From the NCBI RefSeq assembly GCF_900100165.1, contig NZ_FNEO01000006.1, forward strand, positions 1-64,000: a DNA stretch of 64,000 nt, in the 5' to 3' direction. The notes under the pieces are model-generated. The model had not been told where the DNA came from, ran no database searches, and saw only the letters and a list, made by a program, of their open reading frames with translations. The position numbers and the translations under genes are program-made. Shown here one piece after another: positions 8,267 to 34,181 of the stretch; the stretch's first letter is position 1, and each line of letters starts with the position of its first letter. The DNA is from Flavobacterium glycines. GTDB lineage: Bacteria > Bacteroidota > Bacteroidia > Flavobacteriales > Flavobacteriaceae.

Positions 8267-8369
8267 AGAAATTAAATCTTATAAACTACGACTTTGATTA
8301 TTAAAGTGTTTTTTGTGTTCTGCCCAGTAAAATAGGGTTTCAGAAGCAAAAAGAATGCCCTGAAACGAG

Positions 8370-8500
8370 CTTCGGACTCCCTGTTGCATGCTTCGGACTT
8401 CTATTTATATACTTCGATGTCTTGATTCATTCTTCCGTCAGCCTGATGCGAGCTTCCGTGTCTTTAGTACAAGCTTCTGTTGTCGTGATGTTTGTTTCGT
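8370..8500. repeat. degenerate 21-bp periodic repeat
   Basis: CTTC(C/G)G-like heads recur at 8370, 8391, 8412, 8432, 8453, 8474 and 8495, spacing 21, 21, 20, 21, 21 and 21 bp. The tails are degenerate but often end in ATG or GAG and carry TC near position 9-10. The 20-bp unit breaks the frame and a stop occurs on the minus strand, so it is not a coding repeat. It lies in the 658-base gap between the methyltransferase and the beta-galactosidase. Confidence 0.6.
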
Positions 8501-8534
8501 ATAGGTTAGTTGATCTTCAGCAAGACCGTTGGCA

Positions 8535-8587
8535 TAAAAAAAGGCTTTAGCCTAATCTTGATCTAGATTTCGGCTAAAGCCTTTTGG
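8535..8587 (-). terminator. terminator of the beta-galactosidase gene
   Basis: On the minus strand a 14-bp stem (AAAAGGCTTTAGCC at 8539-8552 with GGCTAAAGCCTTTT at 8572-8585) ends in a run of U. It lies about 120 nt past the stop codon of the gene at 8705. Confidence 0.65.
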
Positions 8588-8704
8588 AAACTTTAATTTG
8601 TAAATCGGGCTAAAGCCCTACCCAATTCATACTTTAAAATAGGTATTAATGAAAAAAATCAGTGTTTATCTGTTTAAATCTGTTTCATCCATGTCCCAAA
8701 TTTT

Positions 8705-10801
8705 TTAGTATTTCCACACCAACACATCAGCTGTTTTCATGGCTTTTGTACCAATTATAATTTCGGCATTGGCAGGCAATTTCATTTCATAAACTTTATC
8801 CGAATAGTTTACAGCAATCCCAAAACCGTCGCGGTATTCTACCAATATTCCTTCCGGATAGTTTTCAATAGGGATATTTTGTTGTTGGTATAATTTGGTC
8901 AAAACCTGTTTTTCTAAATCTCCTTTTTTAGAATCAACGCCAATATAAGTCACCGTTCCTTTTCCTAATTTACGCGAAATCACAGCCGGAGTTCCCGCAT
9001 AGAAATCGCCCTGGAAAGTGCCCCAGATTTCGGTTCCTTTGTTTGGTTTTAATAAATCGCCCCAGCTTACCCAGTCAAAATCCTGATTGTTGAATTTGAT
9101 TTTGTCCGGTGATTGCGGCATCAATAAATCATAAGATTCTACTTCGGAACCAATTAATTTCCACATCGGTTCATAGAATTTAGCTTCCCATAAATGCCCT
9201 TTTCGGTTTTGAATTCCTGTACGGCAGCTCATTACTAAGTTTCCTCCGTTTTGAGCATAGGCAGCTAGTTTGTCAATCATTTGCTGGTCAATCATTTGAT
9301 AAGCAGGGACTAGCAACACCGGATATTTTGAAAAATCAGTTGTATCACGAACAAAATCCACCGGAGCTCCAAAAGATTTTGCAGCCTTATAATATTTTGT
9401 AAAATGATTAAATGTATTCCATTGGTTGGTTTGTTTGTTCAAATCAATTCCCATTACATTATCGGCATTGAACAGAATTCCGGTTTTGCGTTGCAAATAA
9501 TCTTTTGGTAATTGTGCTTTCGGATTGTATTTTTTTCTCAAAGCAGCAATGTCTTTGATGAATTGGCTGAATTCCTGTCCGCCGGGAGTAGGTGTAACTC
9601 CATCGGTGCCCACAATTCCGTAGTGGTATTGCTCATAACCGTACAAAGGCGCACGGAAACGATAGGTACAGGTAAATTTACTTCCGCCGGCAAAAACATG
9701 CCACAACCAAAGTCGCATAGCTCCCGGTAAGGGCTGCGGATTGATGCTTCCCCAGTTTACCTGTCCCGGTTGTAATTCCATTACACCGTAAGCCCCTTTC
9801 ATTGGACGGAAAAAATCATTCGACATTGCAATGCGTGAATATTCGCCCACACGATAACCTTTTGGTCCAATGCCTAAATCACCACCATAAACCATATAAC
9901 GGGTGTAAGAAACAAAGTCCAGTTCTTTACTGTCTCCCACATAACCCACATCATACATTGGAATGTAATTAGAAGTAACCCATTGATCCGGATTGGAATA
10001 TTTGCGGATTTCTTTGGCTTGTTCGTCAAGGAAAGTAGCTGTTTCGTCATCTGCAAAGCGATAATGATCCAGTTGGGAGTGTAAATTCATTCCCCAAATG
10101 CCGTGTTTAGGAATATTAATTTCGTCAAAACTACTGTAAGTTCCGCTCCAGAAATTGTTACCCCAGGCTTCGTTAAGTACATCGATGGTTTTGTATTTAT
10201 TTTTTAACCAATTGCGGAAACGTTCGTGTGCATCCTGTCCGTAATCCAGAAAACGACGCGGTTCATTATCCACTTGCCAACCAATTACATTTTTATCATT
10301 TCCATATCTTTTGGCTAATTCGGCAATCATTTTCATCGAATAGGAACGATAATAATTGCTTGAAAAAGTAGCATGCTGGCGTGTTCCATGATCCATTTTA
10401 GTGCCGTCTTCATTAGTTGCCAAAATATCCGGATGCTTGCGAACCAGCCAAACCGGAGGCGTGGCGGTTGAAGTACACATAATTACTTTAAGATGGTATT
10501 TTTTAGCCAGTTCTAAGGATTTATCGAGCCATTTGAAATCGTATTTGCCTTCTTCGGGTTCGAGTTGTGCCCAGGCAAATTCACCAAAATGAGTAAATTC
10601 AAATCCCATTTTCTCCATGTTTTGGAAATCGCGCTCCCACTGCGAAGGATTCCAATGTTCCGGATAATAATAAACTCCCACCGAAGTTAAATCTTTGGAA
10701 GGGAAGAATTTTTCTGTTTTTTGAGCAAAAGTAGCTGTACTAAACAGCAGTAACAGCGCCAGAAAGCATCGTTGATACAATGCAGTAGTTTTGTAATTCA
10801 T
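8705..10801 (-). CDS. Secreted GH42-type beta-galactosidase
   Basis: The 698-residue protein starts with a signal peptide (hydrophobic LALLLLFSTATFAQ) and would act outside the inner membrane. The family GH42 catalytic barrel begins at VGVYYYPEHWNPSQWERDF. The acid/base Glu is E180 in GWQVDNEP, and the nucleophile is E342 in VMELQPGQVNW. A trimerisation/glutamine amidotransferase-like domain follows (about 430-640) and a small beta domain ends the protein. GH42 enzymes release terminal beta-galactose from oligosaccharides. The secreted DUF1961 gene lies upstream on the same strand, but a separate -7 box precedes this gene. Confidence 0.92.
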   Translation of the reverse strand: MNYKTTALYQRCFLALLLLFSTATFAQKTEKFFPSKDLTSVGVYYYPEHWNPSQWERDFQNMEKMGFEFTHFGEFAWAQLEPEEGKYDFKWLDKSLELAKKYHLKVIMCTSTATPPVWLVRKHPDILATNEDGTKMDHGTRQHATFSSNYYRSYSMKMIAELAKRYGNDKNVIGWQVDNEPRRFLDYGQDAHERFRNWLKNKYKTIDVLNEAWGNNFWSGTYSSFDEINIPKHGIWGMNLHSQLDHYRFADDETATFLDEQAKEIRKYSNPDQWVTSNYIPMYDVGYVGDSKELDFVSYTRYMVYGGDLGIGPKGYRVGEYSRIAMSNDFFRPMKGAYGVMELQPGQVNWGSINPQPLPGAMRLWLWHVFAGGSKFTCTYRFRAPLYGYEQYHYGIVGTDGVTPTPGGQEFSQFIKDIAALRKKYNPKAQLPKDYLQRKTGILFNADNVMGIDLNKQTNQWNTFNHFTKYYKAAKSFGAPVDFVRDTTDFSKYPVLLVPAYQMIDQQMIDKLAAYAQNGGNLVMSCRTGIQNRKGHLWEAKFYEPMWKLIGSEVESYDLLMPQSPDKIKFNNQDFDWVSWGDLLKPNKGTEIWGTFQGDFYAGTPAVISRKLGKGTVTYIGVDSKKGDLEKQVLTKLYQQQNIPIENYPEGILVEYRDGFGIAVNYSDKVYEMKLPANAEIIIGTKAMKTADVLVWKY

Positions 10802-21425: not shown

Positions 21426-23792
21426 TTATAAAACGCCACCACCCTGGCTTTCGTTTTGATCTCTTGTTTTTCGTTGGACTGCCTTGTTTTTACCGCTTCC
21501 AAATCGGTAATTGAAACCTATGTAGACTGAGCGGCTTTCCCAGTTGAATTGTCCGTATTGTTCTTTAGGATATTCTGATGTAAAGCGATAGCGCATCGTT
21601 TTAAAAATATCACTGTATCTGACAGTGAATGTTCCGGCTCCTTTCAGAACGTTGAGACTCGAACCTAAATCCATTTTCCACATGGGTTTACCCAGCATTT
21701 GCAGGGTTAAATCTTTTCCCTGATACATGGCAGAAAATTGAAAACGTAAATTTTTAGATGCTTTGAAAGTGTTGTTCATTCGTGCATTAAAAGCAGTTAC
21801 ATTGGCTTCGAGGAATTTACCAGAAACGACACCTCTAATCGTTTTGTTATAAGCATCTACACTCATATTGCTGCTGAACCATTTTGTAAAATCTAAATTA
21901 GCCGAAGATTCGAATCCATAAGCATTGTTGCCATTCAGATTGGCGTAAGATAATGTTTGCTTGGAAGGATCGTTAGGATTTTCGACTAAAGTTCGGGTGA
22001 TTTCATTGTTGATTCGTCTGTAGAAAATCCCAGAGGTTACGGAACCTATTTTTGTTTTTCGGGTGTAATTTAGTTCGAAAGAATTAGTAAACTGCGGACG
22101 CAAATTAGGGTTTCCTTCTGAGTCTATTTGCGGAGTACTCCAATCTCTGATAGGATTTAGTTGGTTAATGCTGGGTCTGTCCACTCTTCTTGAAAAACTT
22201 AAGTTGAACGAGTTTTTTTCAGAAGGAGTATAGTTTAAAAATCCCGAAGGATACAAGGTTAAAATGTCGTTATTAAATTTAGCAGGGGTTTCATCAACTT
22301 TGTTGAAATCAGCATTAGCTTCGTATTTTTCTATTCTTGTTCCCAGTTGTGAGCTCCATTTTTTCCATTGTTTACCAATAGTAGCGTATCCTGAATAAAT
22401 ATTTCGGGAGAATTTAAAATTAGAGTTGTAGTTGTTGTTCAATAAAAAATTATTACGCGCATTTTCGATTCGGCTTTCCAAACCTAATTCTAATTTTAAG
22501 GTTTCTGACAGCGGATTAACGTAATCTAAATTGATTAAAGTGTTGTTTCTTTTGTTGGTGATATAATTAGTTCTGGGATCGCTGTAAAAAGCATCTTCTT
22601 TATTGTCTCCATCAGAATAATTAGCTTCCAGTTCTATGTTGTGTCCTTCTTTTTTAAAATTCTTTTTATAATCTATATTATAGGTTTGGGAAAAATTGTC
22701 AACCTTGTTGTTGAATGTTTGGTTAATATCAGTTTTTGAAGGATCTACAAAATCAATTTTGGATAAGGAACCTGATTTTCCTTTGAATAGGTTTTGATTA
22801 GTGTAGAATGACAAGGTGTTTTTTTCATTGATGTAGATGTCAAAACCTATTTTGGCTAGATGTGAAGTGTTGTTTCTGGTGAAAGTATAATCTTGAAAAT
22901 CTTCCAATCCGGTTTCGGTGGTGTTTATAAAGCCATAATTGGTACGTTTTCCGGTGTTTAAACCGTAATTAGCAAACCAGTTGATTTTTCCGTTGCGGTA
23001 ATTCATGTCAACTGACGAGTTTAATTTTGGTGTGATTCCAAAGGTTACACCGTTATTAATACTTCCGTTTAAGCCTATTTTAGTGTTTTTGTTTAAAACA
23101 ATGTTTATTATTCCGCTCATTCCTTCCGGATTATATTTCGCAGAAGGATTTGTAATTAATTCAATTTGTTTAATGGATGAAGACGGGATTTGCTGTAATA
23201 ATTGGGCCGTTTCTATGGTTGTAGGTTTTCCGTCAATTAATACCCTTACATTTGGATTTCCTCTTAGACTAATGGCATTGGTTTGTTGATCAATGCTAAC
23301 AGAGGGAATGTTGTTCATTATTTCGGCAGCAGTTGAACCTGCTGAAATTAAATCTTTACCAATGTTGATTACTTTTCGATCGATTTTTTGTTCTATAGTC
23401 GATTTTTCGCTGACAATTTCTACGCCTTTTAGCTCAATGGCATCTTCCTCAATGGCAATGGTGTTGAGGTTTGCATTTGTGTTATTTACAGAGAGCGTTA
23501 TAGATTTACTCACGGTTTTGTAACCCATGTACTGAATTTCGACATTGTATTTTTTTAATTCAAGATTCTTGATTCGGAATAATCCTTTTTCAGAAGTGAT
23601 TCCTCCACTTACCACTTTTCCATTATCCTGAACAATAATGTTGACAAAGGGAATAGGCTGGTTAGTTTTTTTATCAACTACCTTTCCTGAAATGCTGCCT
23701 GATGCCTCGGTTAAATTTACCGGTATCGAATTTTGTGCTGCTAAGGAAATAAGATTTCCAAAGAGACAGAGTAAGATTAGTTTTATTCTCAT
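21426..23792 (-). CDS. TonB-dependent receptor-like outer-membrane protein (OMP_b-brl type)
   Basis: The 788-residue protein has a signal peptide (IKLILLCLFGNLISLAAQ), a carboxypeptidase-regulatory-like domain (about 30-115, SGKVVDKKTNQPIPFVNIIVQDNG), a plug domain (EIMNNIPSVSIDQQTNAISLRGNPNVRVLIDGKP), and a long barrel. The barrel has the pattern of the outer-membrane beta-barrel family OMP_b-brl_3. The substrate is unknown. The frame is open to 23867, but MRIKL at 23792 is the start before a proper signal peptide. Upstream are a perfect -7 box (23831-23838) and a palindromic site (23851-23873) shared with the regulator operon at 39901. Confidence 0.88.
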   Translation of the reverse strand: MRIKLILLCLFGNLISLAAQNSIPVNLTEASGSISGKVVDKKTNQPIPFVNIIVQDNGKVVSGGITSEKGLFRIKNLELKKYNVEIQYMGYKTVSKSITLSVNNTNANLNTIAIEEDAIELKGVEIVSEKSTIEQKIDRKVINIGKDLISAGSTAAEIMNNIPSVSIDQQTNAISLRGNPNVRVLIDGKPTTIETAQLLQQIPSSSIKQIELITNPSAKYNPEGMSGIINIVLNKNTKIGLNGSINNGVTFGITPKLNSSVDMNYRNGKINWFANYGLNTGKRTNYGFINTTETGLEDFQDYTFTRNNTSHLAKIGFDIYINEKNTLSFYTNQNLFKGKSGSLSKIDFVDPSKTDINQTFNNKVDNFSQTYNIDYKKNFKKEGHNIELEANYSDGDNKEDAFYSDPRTNYITNKRNNTLINLDYVNPLSETLKLELGLESRIENARNNFLLNNNYNSNFKFSRNIYSGYATIGKQWKKWSSQLGTRIEKYEANADFNKVDETPAKFNNDILTLYPSGFLNYTPSEKNSFNLSFSRRVDRPSINQLNPIRDWSTPQIDSEGNPNLRPQFTNSFELNYTRKTKIGSVTSGIFYRRINNEITRTLVENPNDPSKQTLSYANLNGNNAYGFESSANLDFTKWFSSNMSVDAYNKTIRGVVSGKFLEANVTAFNARMNNTFKASKNLRFQFSAMYQGKDLTLQMLGKPMWKMDLGSSLNVLKGAGTFTVRYSDIFKTMRYRFTSEYPKEQYGQFNWESRSVYIGFNYRFGSGKNKAVQRKTRDQNESQGGGVL

Positions 23793-23830
23793 GACTATAT
23801 TTTTTTGATTGATTTTAATAGTTGATAATG

Positions 23831-23838
23831 CAAATATA
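23831..23838 (-). promoter_or_regulatory. -7 promoter box of the receptor gene
   Basis: TATATTTG on the minus strand is a perfect TAnnTTTG box, 39 nt upstream of the start codon. The operator-like site at 23851-23873 overlaps the expected -33 position. Confidence 0.55.
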
Positions 23839-23850
23839 TATCTTTTAGAT

Positions 23851-23873
23851 AATACTATGCAATGCAAAGTACT
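23851..23873. promoter_or_regulatory. Operator-like palindrome, site 1 (receptor gene)
   Basis: Left arm AATACTATG, 5-nt centre, right arm CAAAGTACT. The right arm and the 9-5-9 spacing are identical to sites at 39872 and 40834. The arms are related as an imperfect inverted repeat around AGTACTTTG/CAAAGTACT. Confidence 0.6.
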
Positions 23874-25835: not shown

Positions 25836-25860
25836 TCAAATTGAAATAAATAAATATCAA

Positions 25861-25893
25861 AAAGACTCCTTTTCGGGAGTCTTCTGTTTTTTT
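25861..25893 (+). terminator. argS terminator
   Basis: An 8-bp stem (AAGACTCC at 25862-25869 with GGAGTCTT at 25876-25883) is followed by a T run. It also separates argS from the convergent YceI gene. Confidence 0.8.
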
Positions 25894-25903
25894 AAGAAAA
25901 AAA

Positions 25904-26449
25904 TTATTGTGGTTCCAGGATAAAATTGATGATGGTATTTACATTTTTTGCAATTTTATCTTTGACTAAATTTGGGATTTCAATGTTGTAATCCTGTGGA
26001 TGAATATCAAAGTTTGATGTAGCGGTAATTTTTCCTGAATTCAAAACCAGATTAATTTTGGTGTTGATTTTTTTGGTTACACCGTGAATCGTTAAATCAC
26101 CCTGTAAGTCATAAGTTGATTTTGTTGCTGATAATTTTTTGGCATCAAAATTTTGAATTTTTCCTTTGAATGTTGCTTTGGGAAAAGTGTTGGATTCCAT
26201 ATAATTTTCATTAAAATGTTCTTCCATTAAAGGTGCTTTGAATTTGAAAGATTTAATTAATACCAAAGCAACAAAATCTCCGGTTGATTCGTCCAGAATA
26301 CAGGAGGCACTATTATTAGTGGCTTTGATTTCTTCGAAACTGGGCATGGATGCTTCAAAAGTAATTTTTCCGGTACGGGTAATCATTTTTTGGGAAAAAC
26401 AATAGTTTCCGATTAGGAATAGCAGTAGTAGAAGGCTTATTTTTTTCAT
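25904..26449 (-). CDS. YceI family periplasmic protein
   Basis: The 181-residue protein starts with a signal peptide (KKISLLLLLFLIGNYCFSQ) and has the YceI lipocalin-like pattern: TRTGKITFEASMPSFEEIKATNNSASCILDESTGDFVALVLIKSF, then MEEHFNENYMESNTFPKATFKGKI, and GDLTIHGVTKKINTKINL. YceI proteins bind isoprenoid-type lipids in a hydrophobic channel. The ATG at 26449 is chosen because the longer frame start (26482) lies inside the upstream gene. It is the last of five minus-strand genes (Rieske, OB-fold, DUF5777, cytochrome-like, YceI), beginning 5 nt after the cytochrome-like gene. Confidence 0.88.
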   Translation of the reverse strand: MKKISLLLLLFLIGNYCFSQKMITRTGKITFEASMPSFEEIKATNNSASCILDESTGDFVALVLIKSFKFKAPLMEEHFNENYMESNTFPKATFKGKIQNFDAKKLSATKSTYDLQGDLTIHGVTKKINTKINLVLNSGKITATSNFDIHPQDYNIEIPNLVKDKIAKNVNTIINFILEPQ

Positions 26450-26454
26450 CTTGT

Positions 26455-26892
26455 TTATTGTATATAACCTTGGGTTTTCCAAAGTAAGATTAAGTTAATA
26501 TTGGCTTGAGACATTTTACCGCTTGGGGGCATGGTTCTGCATCCTTGTGCCTGTATAGTACATAAAAGTTTACCGGCACTTGCGGCATTTTTTACCTGTG
26601 TATAGGTGCCTAATGCCGGAGATTCGCCCCCGCTAAAATGGCAGGCAATACAGTTGTTAGTGATAATCGGTTTTACATCTGTTGTATAGGTTACATTAGG
26701 AGTGGTTGTTGTGGTGCCGCTAGTTGAGCCTGTGGTACTGCCGGAAGTACTGCCGGAGGTATTATCTGTAGAACCAGAATTGTTCTGTGTTGTCGCAGCA
26801 GGATCTTGTTCAATATCCTGAAAAGTGCTTGTTTCGCATGAAAAAAGTATTGCGAAAAAAGTAAAAATTAATAGAAGGGTGATTTTTTTCAT
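26455..26892 (-). CDS. Lipoprotein with a single c-type haem motif
   Basis: The 145-residue protein has a lipoprotein signal peptide with lipobox LFSCE, a long flexible Ser/Gly/Thr-rich linker (about residues 38-67), and a C-terminal cytochrome-like domain. The haem-binding motif CIACH follows the typical TDVKPIITNN, and a candidate distal Met is in RTMPPSGKMS. An extra pair of cysteines (LLCTIQAQGC) could make a disulphide. It would be tethered to the envelope and carry electrons. It lies 11 nt after the DUF5777 gene and 5 nt before the YceI gene, so it is part of the redox operon. Confidence 0.82.
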   Translation of the reverse strand: MKKITLLLIFTFFAILFSCETSTFQDIEQDPAATTQNNSGSTDNTSGSTSGSTTGSTSGTTTTTPNVTYTTDVKPIITNNCIACHFSGGESPALGTYTQVKNAASAGKLLCTIQAQGCRTMPPSGKMSQANINLILLWKTQGYIQ

Positions 26893-26903
26893 TTTTATTT
26901 TTT

Positions 26904-27761
26904 TTAGAAAACTCGGTACATATTAAATCCAAAGAAGATTCCTTTGCTGCCATTTCCGGTTGAATTATTAAAAACAGTAACATCGTTCATAGCCTGGCTA
27001 TTTGAGAATACCAATTGAAAAATGTGTCCTCCGGTTTCAATGTCTAATCCCAGAGTTATTGGATTTTGATAAGGATTATCTTCTTTAGCATTGAGACGGG
27101 TATCGTATTCTAAATTCAGACTTAATCTTTTTGATAATTTATAGCGTCCGCCAAAACCTAACAACATTAAATTAGCATTTTCGCTAACGTTATTATATAA
27201 ATTTTTATGCGTAAAAATGGGAGCTAATTCTAAAGACAATGATTCAGACATTTTTCTCGAAATCAGTAATTGAGCTGAGTAAGCCAAACGATTGGAGAAT
27301 TGTAAAGAAGGATAATCATCTTTACTTAATTCAGTGTTTACATCAAAAGTATTGTAGCCTACGATTGTAACCGGAAATCCTCCTTCAAGTTGATTGGCTA
27401 ATCGGTATTTTAGAGCGGTTTCATAATTCTTTTGAAAAGTATGACGGGATAAACCTACCGATAACCAGTCTGCAATTCCATAGATTCCTCCAATTTTTGT
27501 GTTGGCATTATCCAAACCAAAAAAGTTTTGAAGTCCTTCTGTTAAATCGCCAAATCGATGTGAAATTAATAAGTAAAATTCACCTTTGGCCGGTAATTTT
27601 GTCGATTGGAGGTTAGCAATTTGCAAGGCTTTGAAAGTAGCTGTTACGGCTTCTTTTTTTACAGGTTTTGTATCTAATTGTCCCAATAAATCGTCTTGGG
27701 CCATTGCAGTTTGTAAACTGAATAGAAAAAGAGTGCAAATAATTATTTTATGGATTTTCAT
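26904..27761 (-). CDS. DUF5777 family beta-barrel protein
   Basis: The 285-residue protein has a signal peptide (IIICTLFLFSLQTAMAQ) and a body of alternating strands that ends in aromatic MYRVF, as in outer-membrane barrels. Family-like segments are LPAKGEFYLLISHRFG, FFGLDNANTKIGGIYGIADWLSVGLSRH and LSLNLEYDTRLNA. DUF5777 proteins often sit with YceI and cytochrome genes in Bacteroidota. The function is unknown; it may be an outer-membrane channel or anchor for the redox proteins. It precedes the cytochrome-like gene by 11 nt. Confidence 0.85.
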   Translation of the reverse strand: MKIHKIIICTLFLFSLQTAMAQDDLLGQLDTKPVKKEAVTATFKALQIANLQSTKLPAKGEFYLLISHRFGDLTEGLQNFFGLDNANTKIGGIYGIADWLSVGLSRHTFQKNYETALKYRLANQLEGGFPVTIVGYNTFDVNTELSKDDYPSLQFSNRLAYSAQLLISRKMSESLSLELAPIFTHKNLYNNVSENANLMLLGFGGRYKLSKRLSLNLEYDTRLNAKEDNPYQNPITLGLDIETGGHIFQLVFSNSQAMNDVTVFNNSTGNGSKGIFFGFNMYRVF

Positions 27762-27808
27762 ATAAGTGAAATTTATTTTTTAGCAGTTATAGTTGCTTTT
27801 TTTGTGTG

Positions 27809-27848
27809 TGCAAATTTGTTATCGCTGGCGATTTCATTTTGATTATTT
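27809..27848. repeat. Short repeat in the redox operon, copy 2
   Basis: GCGATTTCATTTT with flanking CAAAT..GTT and GATTA repeats the sequence at 28291-28330. It overlaps the stop codon of the OB-fold gene (27843). The minus strand holds ATCGCCAGCGAT, a small palindrome. Confidence 0.4.
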
Positions 27849-28226
27849 AGAAATAAAACATTGGTCTAATTTCAATTCTCCTAACAAATCATCATAACCT
27901 ACTACACGACCTTTGATGACTACAGTTTGATTTTTTTTGATTTGAGAATCGGGATTTTTCAAAACACAAATGATTGAGTGATCCAGAGTTACTAATGAAT
28001 CCTGGAGTTTTGTTATGGTTCCGGTTATGGCAACCGCTTTTTCTAAATATTTTTTATTCGAATTGTCAAGATTGGCTGTGAATTCAGAAGCAATATCAGA
28101 AGATGAGACACAATAGCTGGCTGTTTCTGATTTTAGGTCTCTGGCGCCGCCATGCATAACATAATAATAACTGCCAAGTCCAACAAAACTTATAGCTAAT
28201 AGTGGGATGATAAGTATTTTTTTCAT
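27843..28226 (-). CDS. OB-fold (tRNA_anti-like) exported protein
   Basis: The 127-residue protein has an N-terminal membrane/signal segment (ILIIPLLAISFVGLGSYYYV) and a C-terminal OB-fold domain: LEKAVAITGTITKLQDSLVTLDHSIICVLKN, then KNQTVVIKGRVVGYDDLLGELKLDQCFI. This matches the tRNA_anti-like family of small Bacteroidota envelope proteins; no nucleic acid role is implied. The function is unknown. Its position between the Rieske and DUF5777 genes suggests a role in the redox operon. The gap to the Rieske gene is 129 nt, so an internal promoter cannot be excluded. Confidence 0.75.
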   Translation of the reverse strand: MKKILIIPLLAISFVGLGSYYYVMHGGARDLKSETASYCVSSSDIASEFTANLDNSNKKYLEKAVAITGTITKLQDSLVTLDHSIICVLKNPDSQIKKNQTVVIKGRVVGYDDLLGELKLDQCFISK

Positions 28227-28290
28227 AGATATGGAATTTATTTTTATAGCGTTTATTTGTTATTCCTTTTTAGTAATTACTATTTCAAAA

Positions 28291-28330
28291 CACAAATGGG
28301 TTGCCAATAGCGATTTCATTTTTGGATTAG
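28291..28330. repeat. Short repeat in the redox operon, copy 1
   Basis: The segment GCGATTTCATTTT and its flanks recur at 27809-27848. Both copies lie in gaps upstream of consecutive operon genes. They may be a regulatory or RNA-processing element. Confidence 0.4.
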
Positions 28331-28355
28331 ATTAAAAAGTAAATAGAAGTTGTTT

Positions 28356-28778
28356 TTATGAATAAATACGTAATGTGTTTCCTGTAAGTGTTACATTGTA
28401 TTGTTTTAGATTTGCTGATCCGGGGCCGTTTAGGTGGGTTCCGGTACTGCTGTAATTGGCACCATGATTGGGACAATGAAAACTATTTGAAGAACCTACA
28501 TAATTTACAGTAGTACCTTCGTGGGTGCAGGCGGCAGAAACAGCTAAAAAAGTACTGGCGTTTTCTCTGGCTATTATAATACCGTTTTTTACTAAATAGC
28601 CTTTGTCGGTAGCTAAAGCACCTGATGAAATGTCTAATGTAAAATCGACTCCGGTAGGAGCTGTTGGTACGCTGCCCTCATCACTACTACAACTTGTGGC
28701 TAAGCCTGAAATACATGCTGGGACTAATAAGGAGGCAGCTCCAAAACCTACTCTTGCAAAAAATTCTTTTCTGTTCAT
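28356..28778 (-). CDS. Rieske [2Fe-2S] lipoprotein
   Basis: The 140-residue protein has an N-terminal export signal (NRKEFFARVGFGAASLLVPACISG) with a possible lipobox LATSCSS. The Rieske cluster ligands are CTH in AACTHEGTTV and CPNH in FHCPNHGANY (C-x-H, 16 residues, C-x2-H). The extra Cys pair found in bc1-type Rieske proteins is missing: CTHEGT and CPNHGA replace CTHLGC and CPCHGS. Such a cluster is more like Rieske ferredoxins. It is the first gene of the five-gene redox operon, preceded 23 nt upstream by ECF-type promoter site A (28801-28836). Confidence 0.85.
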   Translation of the reverse strand: MNRKEFFARVGFGAASLLVPACISGLATSCSSDEGSVPTAPTGVDFTLDISSGALATDKGYLVKNGIIIARENASTFLAVSAACTHEGTTVNYVGSSNSFHCPNHGANYSSTGTHLNGPGSANLKQYNVTLTGNTLRIYS

Positions 28779-28800
28779 AAATTGATTTTTTAGGGATTCA

Positions 28801-28836
28801 ATTATAGAACAGTTATGAGTTTTCTTACCCTACTTT
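28801..28836 (-). promoter_or_regulatory. ECF-type promoter, site A (redox operon)
   Basis: On the minus strand AAAGTAGGGTAA (28825-28836) is followed after 13 nt by TGTTCTATAAT (28801-28811). Sites B and C have the same two blocks at the same spacing. The -10-like block begins 33 nt before the Rieske start codon. Confidence 0.75.
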
Positions 28837-28906: not shown

Positions 28907-31441
28907 TTAGAAGTTAATCCTGAAACTGATGTTAGGAGTTCTTTGTAATGAGAAAGTTTTAACTTCTTCAATTCCGTTAGTCAGATTACTTATTCTGTAA
29001 TATTCACTAATTTCATTTTTCCTGTTTAATACATTCATTATTGAAAGACCAAGTTTGTATTGGATATTTTTAGCGCTTTCCCATTTGTAAGTGGATGAAA
29101 AATTGACTTGAAAAAATGAGGGCAATCTTTTATTATTTGGTGAATTGTATTCGATAACAGGATTATTTGGATCAGCGGTTTTGTTAATAGGAGTTGTTTC
29201 AGGTCTTCCAGTTGCCCACTTAGTTCCTAAAGCAATTTTAAAATTGTTTTTTTCAAATATTGCAGCACCTGAAATCATATGACTTATCAAGAAATTGTTT
29301 GAAAAAGTAGGCGGATTAAAGCTATCGAAGTTATAATTGTTTTTATTGTAGGTATAACTCAACCAGCTTAAAAAGTGGTTGATTTTTTTTTGAAACAGCA
29401 TTTCGGTACCAATTACTCTGTAATTTCCTGTGATTTTTAGAAACTCTAATTGGTTTTGAAATCCTTGACTTGAGCTGGTTATTCCATCGACTTTTTTGTA
29501 AAAATTCTCAAGGTTGATCAGCCAATTATTTTTTTTGAATGAAAAATTCAAGGCAATTTGTTTACTCTGTTGAATAGGTATTGTCGAATTATTAGATAAA
29601 ACCCATCGTCTTTTTTCGATGCCTAAATAGTCTTTTTGTAAATCAATAATCTGTTGGGTATTTTGACTTTTATACTCCGCTAAAACTTCTACATTGAAAT
29701 GCTTAGCAATTCCATAATTAAATTGTAAGCGGGGTTCAATAATAAATTTATTGAAATTTTCAATAAAATTGAATCGTACTCCTGTGTTGAAACTAATTCT
29801 TGAAATAGAATCATTGAATTTACTTTCGAGGATTGCAGCATGGGTTCTTAACACAGATTTACTTTTTCTGTAAAATTGAGGGCTATTGACTGTATCTAGG
29901 TTGGTTACGCCAATTTCATTGAATTGATATCCGTCATTAACAGAGAATTTAGAACTCAAAAAATGATGGTTTTCAATTTTTAGAGCATTATCTAAAACAT
30001 TATTTTTTTGAAATACAATCTGACTTCCTATTGAAGTTTTTTTATTGGCTATAATCTCATAAGATGAAAACGAGGCATTTATAATGGTCTGGTTGTTTTT
30101 ATTCCAATTGCGTTCAAATACTAAATTTCCGCCAAAATTTTCTTGTTCTAATTCATCGTTTTGAGACTGAAAGCTATTATTGACAGCAGCCTTTTGAAAA
30201 ACATTTAAATTGTCATTTATTGAAATCAAATCCAATATAAGCGTGTTTTTACGACCCAATTTTTTGAATAATTTGAATGTTAAATCATAGAAATCAAATT
30301 TTTTGTCGCTGGAATAATTTACTTTTTGGTTTTGTGAAAAATCAGTAATACTGGTGTTTTGAAAAGCCTTGTCAAAGTATTTTGTATAGGTAGGCGTTTC
30401 AAGATAATCCGTAATTGATTTACGTCCGGCAATTTCTATATAAGCAGTTTTTGAGATTGCTTTTTTGAAGTAAAAATCGGCATTAATCATGTTAATTCCG
30501 GCACTGATTTCATTTTTTTCAAAATTTTCAGCTGTTGAAGATATAGTTACCACACTGGAAACACTTTCTCCATAAAAAGCAGAATTTCCATTTTTATAAA
30601 TAGAAATGTTATGAGGTAGATTAGGATTAAATGCTGAAATTAATCCAAAGAAATGTCCTGTTTGATACATTCGGATTCCGTTCCAAAGAAATAAATTTTG
30701 ATCGTGTGTACCACCTCTGATATTAATGTTTGCAACACTTTCGTCATGGCTGTTAACGCCCGGAATTTGCTGCATGGTTTGTAAAATATCGGCTTCTATT
30801 AATCCGGGAAGAATACTAAACTTTTTAGGTTTTATAATAAAGGAACCATCACTATTTTTTGTAATCCCGGTTGCTAAAACAGAATTGGTGATAATTTCCT
30901 GAAGATTAGTTAATTCGGATTCCAGAACTATTTTAATACAGTCATTGTCTTTTATTTCGTTCTGATTTATTTTTTTTGTTGTAAATCCAATATGACTGAT
31001 GGTAATTTCCGATTTTACAGCTTTTTTTATTTCAAAATAGCCTTCGGTATTTGAGGTAATGTGTTTATTATCAGATGTTTTTATATTCGCATTTTCTATA
31101 GGTTTATTATCTATAGATGAGTAAATATAACCGCAGAGTGTAGTGGATTTTTTTTTGGTTTTTAAAGAGATATTAATGAATTTATTGTCAATATTTTCAA
31201 AGTAAAAATCGGTTTGTTTTTCCAGATAAATTAATTGTTGTTCCAAAGACAGAAATTCTTCAGGCGCAATTAAATGTGTTTCATTAATATTCACGCTGTA
31301 ATTAAAGGTTACATGATGTCTGTTTTCAATGGAAGCAATGATTTCTTTTAGGGCAATAGTTGGCTTTTTGTTTTGAGCTGAGATGCTTAAAACAGTCATA
31401 AAACAAGCAAATAAGAAATGCAATTGTTTATGTAACAGCAT
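28907..31441 (-). CDS. TonB-dependent receptor with N-terminal signalling (STN) domain
   Basis: The 844-residue protein has a signal peptide (LHFLFACFMTVLSISAQ), a secretin/TonB short N-terminal domain (about 30-90, IASIENRHHVTFNYSVNI), a carboxypeptidase-regulatory-like domain (about 100-185), a plug (IPGVNSHDESVANINIRGGTHDQNLFLWNGI) and a 22-strand-type barrel ending SFRINF. The STN domain is the part that contacts FecR-type anti-sigma factors, so the receptor is both transporter and sensor. No SusD partner is encoded. The substrate is not known. Its start codon directly follows the fecR stop, so the two are co-transcribed from site B. Confidence 0.92.
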   Translation of the reverse strand: MLLHKQLHFLFACFMTVLSISAQNKKPTIALKEIIASIENRHHVTFNYSVNINETHLIAPEEFLSLEQQLIYLEKQTDFYFENIDNKFINISLKTKKKSTTLCGYIYSSIDNKPIENANIKTSDNKHITSNTEGYFEIKKAVKSEITISHIGFTTKKINQNEIKDNDCIKIVLESELTNLQEIITNSVLATGITKNSDGSFIIKPKKFSILPGLIEADILQTMQQIPGVNSHDESVANINIRGGTHDQNLFLWNGIRMYQTGHFFGLISAFNPNLPHNISIYKNGNSAFYGESVSSVVTISSTAENFEKNEISAGINMINADFYFKKAISKTAYIEIAGRKSITDYLETPTYTKYFDKAFQNTSITDFSQNQKVNYSSDKKFDFYDLTFKLFKKLGRKNTLILDLISINDNLNVFQKAAVNNSFQSQNDELEQENFGGNLVFERNWNKNNQTIINASFSSYEIIANKKTSIGSQIVFQKNNVLDNALKIENHHFLSSKFSVNDGYQFNEIGVTNLDTVNSPQFYRKSKSVLRTHAAILESKFNDSISRISFNTGVRFNFIENFNKFIIEPRLQFNYGIAKHFNVEVLAEYKSQNTQQIIDLQKDYLGIEKRRWVLSNNSTIPIQQSKQIALNFSFKKNNWLINLENFYKKVDGITSSSQGFQNQLEFLKITGNYRVIGTEMLFQKKINHFLSWLSYTYNKNNYNFDSFNPPTFSNNFLISHMISGAAIFEKNNFKIALGTKWATGRPETTPINKTADPNNPVIEYNSPNNKRLPSFFQVNFSSTYKWESAKNIQYKLGLSIMNVLNRKNEISEYYRISNLTNGIEEVKTFSLQRTPNISFRINF

Positions 31442-32341
31442 TTATTTCTCTTCAAAAATTATTGTAGTTGAATTTATTTTTCTTGCTTTTAAATTATAAG
31501 TTGTACTAATAATTCTTGTTGCAACTTCTAAATTATTAGAGGGTAATTTTCCTGTAAATAAAGAATTAGAAGTATTGGATTTTAATTGGATAGTAATGTC
31601 GTATTGTCTTTGAAGTTCATCTAAAATGTTTTGGATGTTTTCATTTTTAAATGCTATAATACCATCAATCCATTCCGGTTTTAAAGAGGTTGTTGTGGTA
31701 TTTATTTGTTTGTTATTTTCAAAAGTTACGCTTTGACCATGTGTCAAAATAATTTGGCTGTTTTTATAATTTACTTTTACCCGTCCTTCGTAGCAGGTTA
31801 CATCAAATTTGTTTTTTCTTGCTTTAACATCAAATTGTGTACCGAGTACAGTAACTTTTCCTAAATTAGTGATTACTTCAAATCGACGTCCTTTAGCGAC
31901 TTTAAAATAAGCTTCGCCATCAAGTTCTAATTTTCTGTGGCTTTTCCATTTCCATTTTTTGAATTCTATTTTTGAACCTGAATTCAAAACAACCTGAGAA
32001 TCGTCTGGTAAATAAAAGCTTGTTTTTTGGGCATAATTAGCAACCTGGCTTTGCGGAATGAAATTTTGCATTGCAAAAGTTAATCCTATTCCCAGAATAA
32101 ATATGGCCGCAATTCTTAAAATCCATTTTTTAGAGATGGAGATTACTTTTGGTGTTTCTTTTTTATGTTGAAGAATAGTTGCCAACATCGTATCTTCATC
32201 TAATGCTCCAACTTCAAGATGTTCCGAATATTTTTTGATTTTTTGATATTTTTCAAAATCCGGACTGGCTTCAAATTCGGCTAATTCTTGAGCTGATAAT
32301 TCGTTGTTAAGCCATTTGGCTAAAAGGTAATTCTTTTTCAT
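31442..32341 (-). CDS. fecR: FecR family anti-sigma factor
   Basis: The 299-residue inner-membrane protein has an N-terminal cytoplasmic domain that binds sigma (about 1-70), one membrane helix (ILRIAAIFILGIGLTFA, about 85-103), and the periplasmic FecR domain: FYLPDDSQVVLNSGSKIEFKKWKWKSHRKLELDGEAYFKVAKGRRFEV, then TVLGTQFDVKA and VTCYEGRVKV. The C-terminal DUF4974-like part follows (EWIDGIIAFKNENIQNILDELQRQYD). It would hold the ECF sigma factor until the receptor signals. It lies 57 nt after the sigma gene, and that gap contains promoter site B. Confidence 0.94.
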   Translation of the reverse strand: MKKNYLLAKWLNNELSAQELAEFEASPDFEKYQKIKKYSEHLEVGALDEDTMLATILQHKKETPKVISISKKWILRIAAIFILGIGLTFAMQNFIPQSQVANYAQKTSFYLPDDSQVVLNSGSKIEFKKWKWKSHRKLELDGEAYFKVAKGRRFEVITNLGKVTVLGTQFDVKARKNKFDVTCYEGRVKVNYKNSQIILTHGQSVTFENNKQINTTTTSLKPEWIDGIIAFKNENIQNILDELQRQYDITIQLKSNTSNSLFTGKLPSNNLEVATRIISTTYNLKARKINSTTIIFEEK

Positions 32342-32358
32342 AATATCATTTCTTGTTA

Positions 32359-32393
32359 TATAAGAACAATTTTGTTGTTTTTTACCCTACTTT
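32359..32393 (-). promoter_or_regulatory. ECF-type promoter, site B (fecR-receptor)
   Basis: On the minus strand AAAGTAGGGTAA (32382-32393) is followed after 13 nt by TGTTCTTATA (32359-32368). The -10-like block begins 27 nt before the fecR start codon. Its place after the sigma gene means that fecR and the receptor, but not the sigma gene, would be induced. Confidence 0.78.
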
Positions 32394-32398
32394 TTTAT

Positions 32399-32914
32399 TT
32401 ATAAATCAATGTTTTCGCGCAATGTTACCAGTGCCAGATGGATTCTTTTTTCGACAGCTTTTACAGTAATTCCTAGTTCCTGAGCAATTTCGCTGTATTT
32501 TTTTCCATCAATTCTATGCATTAAGAAAGCTTGTCTGTGTTTGACGTTCAGGTTTTCTATTGCTTTTAATAATTTTGTTTGAAATTGTTGTTCTTCCAAA
32601 AGATATTCAGGGTTTTCATTTGTTTGATCAATACCATTAAAATTTTTTTCATATTTCAAAACCACTTTTTTGTGAGCTATTTCGTTTATCGAACTGTTAT
32701 TGGCAATAGTATAAACAAATGATTTTGCTTTTTCGATAGGTACGGAGGCGCAGTTTTGCCATAGTTTAATGAAAGCTTCCTGTGCTAAATCCTGAGCCAT
32801 TTCTTCGTTCCCAAACTTGTAAAAAAGAAAATTCCGAAGTGCTTTTATATTTTTTTTAAAAAATGATGAAAAAATAATTTCGTTGCAAGTGTTTGATTTG
32901 TAGTCTTCTGTCAT
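32399..32914 (-). CDS. ECF sigma factor, FecI-like
   Basis: The 171-residue protein has sigma region 2 (LRNFLFYKFGNEEMAQDLAQEAFIKLWQN, about 26-55) and region 4 (HRQAFLMHRIDGKKYSEIAQELGITVKAVEKRIHLAL, about 122-160), joined by a short linker. This is the usual size for Bacteroidota FecI-like sigma factors. It would direct RNA polymerase to a small set of promoters on release from FecR. The sites A, B and C nearby are the best candidates. No such site precedes the sigma gene itself on its own strand. Confidence 0.95.
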   Translation of the reverse strand: MTEDYKSNTCNEIIFSSFFKKNIKALRNFLFYKFGNEEMAQDLAQEAFIKLWQNCASVPIEKAKSFVYTIANNSSINEIAHKKVVLKYEKNFNGIDQTNENPEYLLEEQQFQTKLLKAIENLNVKHRQAFLMHRIDGKKYSEIAQELGITVKAVEKRIHLALVTLRENIDL

Positions 32915-32961: not shown

Positions 32962-32997
32962 AAAGTAGGGTATATCAGAAGTTAAATGTTTTATATA
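32962..32997 (+). promoter_or_regulatory. ECF-type promoter, site C (lipoprotein pair)
   Basis: On the plus strand AAAGTAGGGTAT (32962-32973) is followed after 13 nt by TGTTTTATAT (32987-32996). It faces the two lipoprotein genes at 33138 and 34222 and lies between the divergent sigma gene and this pair. Confidence 0.7.
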
Positions 32998-33137
32998 CGA
33001 AGTAACATATTTTTTAATCTAGTTGTTCTCAATTATAACTTTTTTTTTGAAAAATTATTTTGAGAGTTTTTGAATTAATGAAGGAAGTTTTAGATGTTGA
33101 AAAATTAAAAACTATTACATTTGAAAAAAAAAATACT

Positions 33138-34181
33138 ATGCTGATTTTAAATAAAAACATAAGTAAGTTGTTGATTTTTAGTTTTTTAATTTTTGTTTCT
33201 TGTCAGGGCGAAATTGAAGAGCAAAAAACAAATAATCAGGTATCTATTGCTAAAGATTCGCCATTTACCTCCTATTTACAAAGAGTAGTAATGGTGAAAA
33301 CAGCTGATGATAATATAATAGATAAGTCGAGTTATTGTACTGTAAAATTTCCATATACAGTAACCGTTAATGATGTAACTATTGCAATTAATTCGGCTGA
33401 TGATTATGCAAAAGTTGTTAGTAATATCAATGCAAATACAACAGATGATGATATTGTAAAAATAATTTTTCCGGTTACCATGATTTATTATAATTATGAA
33501 GAAGAATTAATTCAAAATGAACTTCAATTTAATGCTTTACTGGACTATTGGGAATCTTTACCGGATTTATTGGCTAAAATAAATTGTTTGAATATTAGTT
33601 ATCCTATTGTTCTTAATGTTTATAATAGTTCAAATCAAAGTGCTAATTCGGTTGTAATTGCTAATGATGAAGCCTTTTATAATTTTATAAATAATTTAAG
33701 TAGCGGTAAGTTATTCGCTATTAATTATCCAATATCATTAAAAGACAATAATAATCATACTAAAATCATAAATAATAATTCACAATTTGATGATGCAATT
33801 GAAGACGCCATTGAGCACTGTAGTTCAAATCTTAATACGTCTTTGAATTTTCTTGAAACGATTATATCTGGTAGTTGGAAAGTAGCTTACTATTATGATG
33901 AATCAGATAAAACATTTTTGTATAAAGATTATCAATTAGTGTTCAAGAATGACTTTACAGTTAAAGCTGTAAAATCATCAACAGTTTTAAATGGTACTTG
34001 GGAAACAAAAGTAGAAAATGGAGTCAGGGAGTTTAAAATTCATTTTGATTCTGATAATCCTTTACATGAATTAGATGAAGGATGGAAACTTTTTGAATTC
34101 AACAATTCACAAATTAGATTTAGGGGAAATACAAGCGACAGTGGTACACAAACAGAATATTTCTATTTGATTAAGATATAA
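33138..34181 (+). CDS. Lipoprotein with four internal repeats and a lipocalin-like C-terminus
   Basis: The 347-residue protein is not a named family. The start at 33138 is chosen because it gives a lipoprotein signal peptide (LNKNISKLLIFSFLIFVSCQ); longer forms from 33060 or 33078 have a charged extension. Four repeated modules follow, each with a strand pair and a helix: VKFPYTVTV, IIFPVTMIY, ISYPIVLNV and INYPISLKD, each about 30-45 residues before a short helix ending in residues like FNALLDYWESL or FYNFINNL. The last 105 residues (SGSWKVAYYYDESDKTFLY... onward) look like a lipocalin-type domain. It would be surface or periplasmic. Site C is about 140 nt upstream of the start. Confidence 0.7.
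   Translation: MLILNKNISKLLIFSFLIFVSCQGEIEEQKTNNQVSIAKDSPFTSYLQRVVMVKTADDNIIDKSSYCTVKFPYTVTVNDVTIAINSADDYAKVVSNINANTTDDDIVKIIFPVTMIYYNYEEELIQNELQFNALLDYWESLPDLLAKINCLNISYPIVLNVYNSSNQSANSVVIANDEAFYNFINNLSSGKLFAINYPISLKDNNNHTKIINNNSQFDDAIEDAIEHCSSNLNTSLNFLETIISGSWKVAYYYDESDKTFLYKDYQLVFKNDFTVKAVKSSTVLNGTWETKVENGVREFKIHFDSDNPLHELDEGWKLFEFNNSQIRFRGNTSDSGTQTEYFYLIKI

Follow-up and report, generated by a model that had tools for sequence, protein, structure and literature searches.

Several described systems share parts with the locus reported here. Porin-cytochrome conduits of the MtrCAB type hold a multihaem cytochrome inside a large outer-membrane barrel, and cell-surface signalling of the FecI-FecR-FecA type operates through an extracytoplasmic function (ECF) sigma factor, a FecR protein and a TonB-dependent receptor. 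In Burkholderia, the YceI-family protein BcnA and the cytochrome b561 LcoA form a defence against lipid peroxyl radicals that is supported experimentally (PMC9113575), and in Cellvibrio japonicus a YceI-like domain (X158) and a c-type cytochrome domain (X183) occur together outside the cytoplasm in Cbp2D and Cbp2E (PMC12542752, PMC10154616); here and below, statements tied to published articles refer to excerpts of them. The present analysis concerns the first 64,000 nucleotides of contig NZ_FNEO01000006.1 of Flavobacterium glycines (assembly GCF_900100165.1; this whole stretch is hereafter the window), in which a five-gene operon on the minus strand encodes a Rieske protein, an oligonucleotide/oligosaccharide-binding (OB) fold protein, a DUF5777 protein, a c-type cytochrome and a YceI lipocalin. 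With moderate confidence, we read this operon as a module for electron transfer at the outer membrane that has an exchangeable partner and is placed here under receptor control. Like the Burkholderia system, it pairs a YceI lipocalin with an envelope haem protein, whereas LcoA is a b-type, inner-membrane cytochrome, and the excerpts of that article describe no outer-membrane barrel, c-type cytochrome, exchangeable partner protein or receptor control. The Cellvibrio proteins share the YceI and cytochrome c combination, but their domains are fused and secreted with a cellulose-binding module, and no barrel, OB protein or Rieske protein is named in the excerpts (PMC12542752, PMC10154616).

The reading rests first on the conservation of the unit. 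Gene content was compared in 100 neighbourhoods, hand-picked and mostly taken from the top of match lists, together with two further cassettes of the same genome and the window, giving 109 DUF5777 genes. Twenty loci added later, in part chosen for their Rieske genes, and 33 Rieske loci stand outside the 109-gene counts but were used for the tree, for counting sites, for the type IX secretion scan and for the cytochrome counts. Two pairs of loci are duplicate DNA (L158 and L107; L163 and L116), in L095 the DUF5777 gene is absent from the set of open reading frames, and families beyond those scanned in Pfam were labelled with profiles built from the sampled loci. Within 3.5 kb of the 109 DUF5777 genes, the cytochrome was found near 95, YceI near 95, the OB protein near 68 and all three near 63, while none of these three families occurs among 435 genes lying at least 4.5 kb from DUF5777, implying that the unit is real and not a product of chance. 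A preliminary description of this DNA had proposed the five genes as a compact electron-transfer unit. Their relatives are indeed clustered and not scattered, in an order that varies, and at the sequence level the conserved unit, its redox centres and its predicted barrel all stand; the inclusion of the Rieske gene in that unit does not, as it is one of several interchangeable partners. The four-gene core occurs three times in the genome and only the window copy has a Rieske gene; given that the core is found twice more without it, the Rieske gene is an add-on.

DUF5777 was found in 141 of 199 genomes sampled from the genus (137 over the cut-off), 96 of 199 from the family and 153 of 395 from the phylum (152 over the cut-off), the three samples overlapping; all 14 control genomes were without it. 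The relatives closest to the window proteins lie in other loci: L159 is within the eight best matches of all four core proteins, and L107 ranks first to third for DUF5777, the cytochrome and YceI and falls outside the top eight for the OB protein, while the core paralogues of the same genome rank just 35th to 65th. One of these paralogous cassettes, on another contig (L004, 3949-14022), is located between ferrochelatase-like and early haem-synthesis-like genes, as judged by eye; the third cassette (L005) has a second YceI gene (8361-8900, minus strand) on the opposite strand, facing DUF5777. The name DUF5777 is absent from the open-licence literature searched, and no description of the cassette was found there by searches that included YceI with DOMON, YceI with Rieske, and Bacteroidota extracellular electron transfer together with type IX secretion; other publications may describe the genes under different names. 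A YceI gene and reduced transcripts for cytochrome c appear in a study of Riemerella under iron limitation (PMC5429918), but could not be connected with this cassette.

Between or beside the core genes lies a position, here called the slot, whose occupant changes among relatives. In the 109 cassettes it holds a DOMON protein (14), a PF03640 lipoprotein (10), a plastocyanin/azurin-type cupredoxin (7), an EB_dh protein (5; confirmed by Pfam in L050 and assigned by a home-built profile in the other four) or a Rieske protein (5). No cassette among the 109 has two kinds of occupant; Rieske and DOMON genes are found together in six cassettes outside that sample, so the exclusion is not absolute. Fusions among the core and slot families were not found in the sampled loci. 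A quick phylogeny of 128 DUF5777 sequences, with 57 occupied cassettes, calls for at least 15 changes of slot state, compared with a least possible value of 5 for six states and a mean of 34.8 (lowest 31) in 100 shuffles. The slot state is thus clustered on this sequence tree, yet has changed repeatedly. The window groups with two other Rieske-bearing, receptor-linked cassettes (Shimodaira-Hasegawa-like approximate likelihood ratio test, SH-aLRT, 98). The type IX secretion tail PF18962 was detected in all 30 DOMON and cupredoxin proteins scanned, of which 21 matched DOMON and 7 Copper-bind at an E-value of 0.01. Considering that the DOMON and cupredoxin slot proteins of relatives carry this tail, the end point of electron transfer is probably at or outside the outer membrane.

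An end point outside the cell could also serve extracellular oxidative enzymes that break down polymers, as has been proposed for Cbp2D and Cbp2E, the former of which combines c-type cytochrome and YceI-like domains in one protein (PMC12542752, PMC10154616). In two cassettes with both Rieske and DOMON genes (L108 and L109), glycoside hydrolase-like genes, recognised by eye, stand upstream of a run of ankyrin, Rieske, DOMON, OB, DUF5777, cytochrome and YceI genes. DOMON is also the cytochrome type of fungal cellobiose dehydrogenase. Nevertheless, glycosidase-like neighbours are confined to these two loci, and no monooxygenase of the kind required was seen among the scanned neighbours, for which no dedicated search was made; we regard electron supply to such enzymes as very improbable.

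The occupant of the slot in the window is the Rieske [2Fe-2S] envelope protein (28356-28778, minus strand; PF00355, 1.6e-10). Its four cluster ligands (CxH and CxxH) are invariant in the 15 Rieske proteins aligned, a hand-picked subset, and the cytochrome CxxCH motif described below is as constant, in agreement with the preliminary assignment of redox centres to two of the five proteins. Rieske proteins of the bc1 type have a disulfide cysteine in each cluster loop. The window protein belongs to the same [2Fe-2S] sequence family as the bc1/b6f subunit and shares its ligand motif, as indicated by PDB matches, but its loops read CTHEGT and CPNHGA, without the two disulfide cysteines, and no cytochrome b partner gene was present among the operon and regulator genes scanned with Pfam. 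Across the 15 aligned proteins, the bc1 cysteine positions are occupied by Thr and by Asn or another non-Cys residue, which suggests that this family is likely to have a lower redox potential.

Close relatives of the window Rieske protein (E-value of 3e-30 or less) were found in 19 of 199 genus genomes, or 26 of 199 when weaker ones are counted; by their listed positions, ten of the 19 are no more than 3 kb from DUF5777, whereas in an eleventh the two genes share one locus (L152) at a distance of 6 kb. Among the 33 Rieske loci from named genomes, the fetched stretch, short in some cases, contains DUF5777 in eight. In L111 (10001-13504, by Pfam), a member of this Rieske family stands at the head of a thioredoxin-ApbE-DUF4266-DUF3570 cluster, and L153 and L155 have a Rieske-headed cluster of the ApbE/DUF3570 kind, judged from gene sizes only. 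Such clusters have been tied to flavin-based electron transfer (PMC8238504), so the family heads a second electron-transfer setting; that setting differs from the window in being flavin-based and, in L111, in lacking YceI, the mono-haem cytochrome and DUF5777. Three contigs titled Bifidobacterium, Phycisphaerales and Akkermansiaceae (L116, L120 and L126) carry Bacteroidetes-type Rieske genes and are probably errors of metagenome binning.

The five genes run in one direction, as initially described, behind a site that resembles an ECF sigma factor promoter (28805-28833, minus strand). The assignment of the five protein families likewise holds by Pfam and motifs, with one amendment: the OB protein has a predicted membrane helix and no lipobox cysteine. 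Four of the five proteins pass the curated Pfam cut-offs, and the cytochrome is below (Cytochrome_CBB3, 5e-4). The gaps between the genes, from the Rieske gene onwards, are 129, 81, 11 and 5 nt. Independent promoters in the two larger gaps would have divided the operon; only two sigma-70-like matches were detected in them or at their edge (28307-28279 and 27770-27742 on the operon strand), and matches of this type do not exceed the number given by shuffled sequence (26 observed against 34.2 expected). Past YceI lies a terminator-like hairpin with a 10-pair stem and a T run (25860-25885, minus strand), which also faces a converging gene.

The DUF5777 gene (26904-27761, minus strand) scores 282.6 bits against PF19089 (2.8e-84), far above the cut-off of 23.1, and the structure model built from nine sequences is a 12-strand barrel with a mean predicted local distance difference test (pLDDT) score of 67.1. 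KdgM is among its best fold matches (Z 17.3 over 166 residues, 2.3 Å). Many unrelated barrels score nearly as high, hence the match speaks for a barrel and not for a function, and we take the protein as a predicted outer-membrane barrel, as had been proposed. Although the cassette shares an outer-membrane barrel and c-type cytochromes with MtrCAB-type conduits, and MtrC/MtrF-like proteins adjoin one cassette clade, here a cytochrome with one CxxCH and a modelled 12-strand barrel are found in place of a decahaem wire. The possibility that DUF5777 is an MtrB-like conduit was discarded, the 12 modelled strands being too few.

The OB protein (27843-28226, minus strand; PF12869, 2.7e-10) shows a predicted N-terminal membrane helix (residues 6-26) followed by an OB fold, modelled from eight sequences with a mean pLDDT of 83.5. 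Its best fold match is the lipoprotein 3f1z (Z 11.7). In the haem chaperone CcmE, the haem-binding His is located in a C-terminal tail after the OB fold. A CcmE-like role was considered for the OB protein and rejected: the predicted anchor and the modelled fold would fit, but CcmE matches (Z 8.8, 8.7, 8.3 and 7.6) are interspersed among other OB folds, and the last strand of the model ends at residue 126/127, leaving no CcmE-type tail.

The cytochrome (26455-26892, minus strand) has a lipobox-like Cys, the haem motif CIACH and a downstream Met; CxxCH and the Met are invariant in 14 of 14 aligned sequences, again a hand-picked subset, and by motif the window protein is a class I (His/Met) c-type cytochrome. 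Mono-haem proteins dominate the family: among 131 profile-labelled cytochromes, 115 have one CxxCH, 12 none, three have two and one has six. A simple pattern for the lipobox was matched by 81 of 116 cytochrome-labelled proteins shorter than 240 residues, and 68 of these 81 have two or more acidic residues among the next eight, a count for which no background set was scored. This acidic stretch resembles the export signal of surface lipoproteins (PMC5080379). The genome also has a gene for cytochrome c assembly. The top PDB match of the cytochrome profile, 4rlr, was set aside since it covers just about 30 profile residues.

The last gene encodes the YceI lipocalin (25904-26449, minus strand), which scores 55.4 bits against PF04264 (1.2e-14; cut-off 23.7) when scanned without its first Met, and whose family profile matches PDB 1y0g (6.4e-11). 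YceI structures have been found with quinone, and isoprenoid or quinone binding is reported for relatives (PMC9113575). The fusion of YceI-like and cytochrome c domains in Cbp2D of Cellvibrio supports the pairing of the two proteins (PMC12542752, PMC10154616).

One form of the cassette has a different setting. By home-built profile, 14 of the 109 cassettes are without YceI, and ten of these, grouped by EB_dh, NrfD or a similar setting, make up one side of a tree branch. In this clade NrfD and 4Fe-4S genes stand in place of YceI and OB, with multihaem neighbours, and an NrfD gene is located within 5 kb in seven of the ten. When 38 unlabelled genes near the ten cassettes were scanned with Pfam, nine further cytochrome c proteins and one YceI (L072) came to light. 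Proteins with six CxxCH motifs occur in L037 and L050; the L037 protein and a protein of L063 pass the MtrC/MtrF domain cut-off and the L050 protein is below it. This gene content places one form of the barrel and cytochrome in a setting that runs from quinol to the outer membrane. An apparent exclusion between NrfD and YceI, with a small Fisher value, was not used, given that it comes from one clade in which L072 has a YceI gene.

The main rival to an electron-transfer module is an antioxidant defence of the outer membrane, in which a reduced isoprenoid carried by YceI would quench lipid peroxyl radicals, the cytochrome, Rieske or DOMON protein would re-reduce it or detoxify peroxides, and the receptor would sense the damaging agent. 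Two observations agree with such a defence: 14 of the 109 DUF5777 genes have, no farther than 3.5 kb away, an ankyrin protein of the type that is associated with catalase in other settings, and OMPLA is among the fold matches of the barrel model (Z 11.8). Its precedent is the BcnA-LcoA pair (PMC9113575). However, no cytochrome b561 that would correspond to LcoA, and no catalase or aldehyde reductase, occurs among the operon genes, to which the search was confined. The respiratory setting of the clade with NrfD and MtrC-like proteins also speaks against it, and exported haem and copper proteins would suit surface redox chemistry better than membrane repair. On balance we consider the antioxidant explanation unlikely.

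Upstream of the operon, and on the same strand, are the genes of a TonB-dependent receptor (28907-31441; Plug PF07715, 4e-9, and CarbopepD_reg_2, 5e-9), a FecR anti-sigma factor (31442-32341; PF04773, 1.2e-16) and an ECF sigma factor (32399-32914; sigma-70 regions 2 and 4 by Pfam, TIGR02985 at 117.5 bits, below the cut-off of 126.4), followed on the plus strand by a divergent exported lipoprotein (33060-34181; start uncertain, TTG as listed). The ECF-type site is common to the FecR gene, the divergent lipoprotein gene and the redox operon, in line with the preliminary linkage of the operon to the receptor system. The 29-base pattern has two exact copies in the 3.94 Mb genome, one 26 nt before the Rieske ATG and the other (32965-32993, plus strand) 66 nt before the divergent lipoprotein gene. 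Its two one-mismatch copies precede the FecR gene of the window (32362-32390, minus strand; 20 nt before the gene) and the FecR gene of a paralogous lipoprotein-ECF-FecR-receptor system on another contig (L151, 6536-11819), which has no redox operon beside it. At two mismatches the genome-wide matches are noise, the reversed control matching more often (57 against 28); the window itself contains three sites at up to two mismatches against a mean of 0.48 in 100 shuffles, one of which reaches three.

In the wider sample, 25 loci have ECF and FecR genes, 24 of them with DUF5777 and 23 after removal of a duplicate; in 16 of these 23, a redox-operon gene is preceded by a site that has no more than one mismatch. 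The gene concerned is OB in L006, L007, L010, L013, L014, L015, L021 and L152 (overlapping the listed start in L152), Rieske in L106 (F. cellulosilyticum), L107 (F. muglaense), L159, L160 and the window, PF03640 in L011 and L017 (the latter with a second site before OB) and the cytochrome in L044. The site therefore tracks the first gene of the operon, whichever it is, which constitutes good evidence from sequence comparison that it controls the redox operon, and the adjacent sigma factor would be the one that reads it. As in FecI-FecR-FecA signalling, the genes for an ECF sigma factor, a FecR protein and a TonB receptor stand together at this locus and a common site recurs ahead of the putative targets, but the output would extend beyond a transporter to a redox operon and a lipoprotein. 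The divergent lipoprotein, which has no Pfam match of note and homologues beside the ECF gene in relatives, is probably part of the same regulon and is perhaps a ligand-binding partner of the receptor. A search for the receptor substrate by PDB sequence matching gave a single weak and irrelevant match. Also near the cassette is a gene for a carboxypeptidase-regulatory, outer-membrane-barrel receptor-like protein (21426-23867, minus strand), with relatives near the cassettes of L106, L107 and L084.

The site shared by FecR, the receptor and the redox operon would also suit metal acquisition, in which the receptor would import chelated ferric iron or copper, and the redox proteins induced with it would set the metal free by reducing it at the outer membrane. 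PepSY_TM genes, a family linked to iron reduction (PMC8238504), are found close to the regulon at four loci of the genus (L007, L010, L011 and L014), but PepSY genes are not concentrated at the cassette (two near, four distal). Moreover, in 105 of 128 cassettes, among them two of the three cassettes of this genome, FecR and sigma genes are missing from the surrounding 7 kb, the operon scan contains no iron-uptake gene besides the receptor, and iron-rich proteins would be an odd output for iron starvation. We therefore find metal acquisition rather improbable.

For the electron-transfer module that we favour, the following course of events is proposed. Binding of a ligand to the TonB receptor would free the sigma factor, which would act at the shared ECF-type site. 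Prenylated quinone in this phylum is menaquinone; YceI may ferry it through the periplasm and exchange electrons with the cytochrome c, which would be held at the outer membrane beside the DUF5777 barrel. The cytochrome would in turn exchange electrons with the slot protein, and the latter would determine the final partner. The barrel looks too narrow for a multihaem wire and may organise the complex or let in a small redox substrate. The parts, their conservation, the shared site and the export tails of relatives are observed in the sequences; the flow of electrons and its direction, the carriage of quinone by YceI, the part played by the barrel and the dependence on the sigma factor are what we infer from them.

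Several observations weigh against this reading. The slot has no recognised partner in 68 of the 109 cassettes, and few redox families were found among 48 unlabelled neighbours of such cassettes; PF03640 is a family of unknown function and is accordingly not claimed as redox-active. In the window, the Rieske protein has no type IX tail in the Pfam scan, the acidic signal of the cytochrome is weaker than in many relatives and a weak terminator-like hairpin of 5 pairs lies within the cytochrome gene (26587-26571). Because the genome has eight YceI copies over the cut-off, YceI alone is no pointer to electron transfer. The change from YceI to NrfD counts as one event, as it belongs to a single clade, and one of the ten members, L072, does have a YceI gene, missed by the profile. 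With regard to control, no site with at most one mismatch precedes the redox operon in seven of the 23 loci; four of them (L042, L045, L049 and L057) have no copy and three (L161, L162 and L168) have copies only before other genes. FecR and sigma genes occur within 7 kb of DUF5777 in just 23 of 128 cassettes, implying that receptor control is not general, and over the sample as a whole the vicinity of DUF5777 shows no enrichment of sigma, FecR or receptor genes.

More tentatively, and with considerable doubt, the cassette could represent a distinct type of machine for electron transfer at the outer membrane, common in Bacteroidetes, that works without multihaem wires. In it a lipocalin would ferry quinone through the periplasm to a mono-haem cytochrome located at a barrel of small size, and the choice of extracellular partner would fall to an exchangeable redox protein (Rieske, cupredoxin or haem DOMON, sent to the surface in many relatives), often in this genus with its own TonB receptor as a switch. 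DUF5777 is present in about two of every five phylum genomes sampled (153 of 395). If the cassette does move electrons at the surface, this would provide a function for a large family of barrels and an envelope role for YceI in the phylum, and it would explain why haem and copper proteins bear type IX secretion tails. The receptor and the sigma site make the module testable, and the ligand of the receptor may lead to the redox partner.

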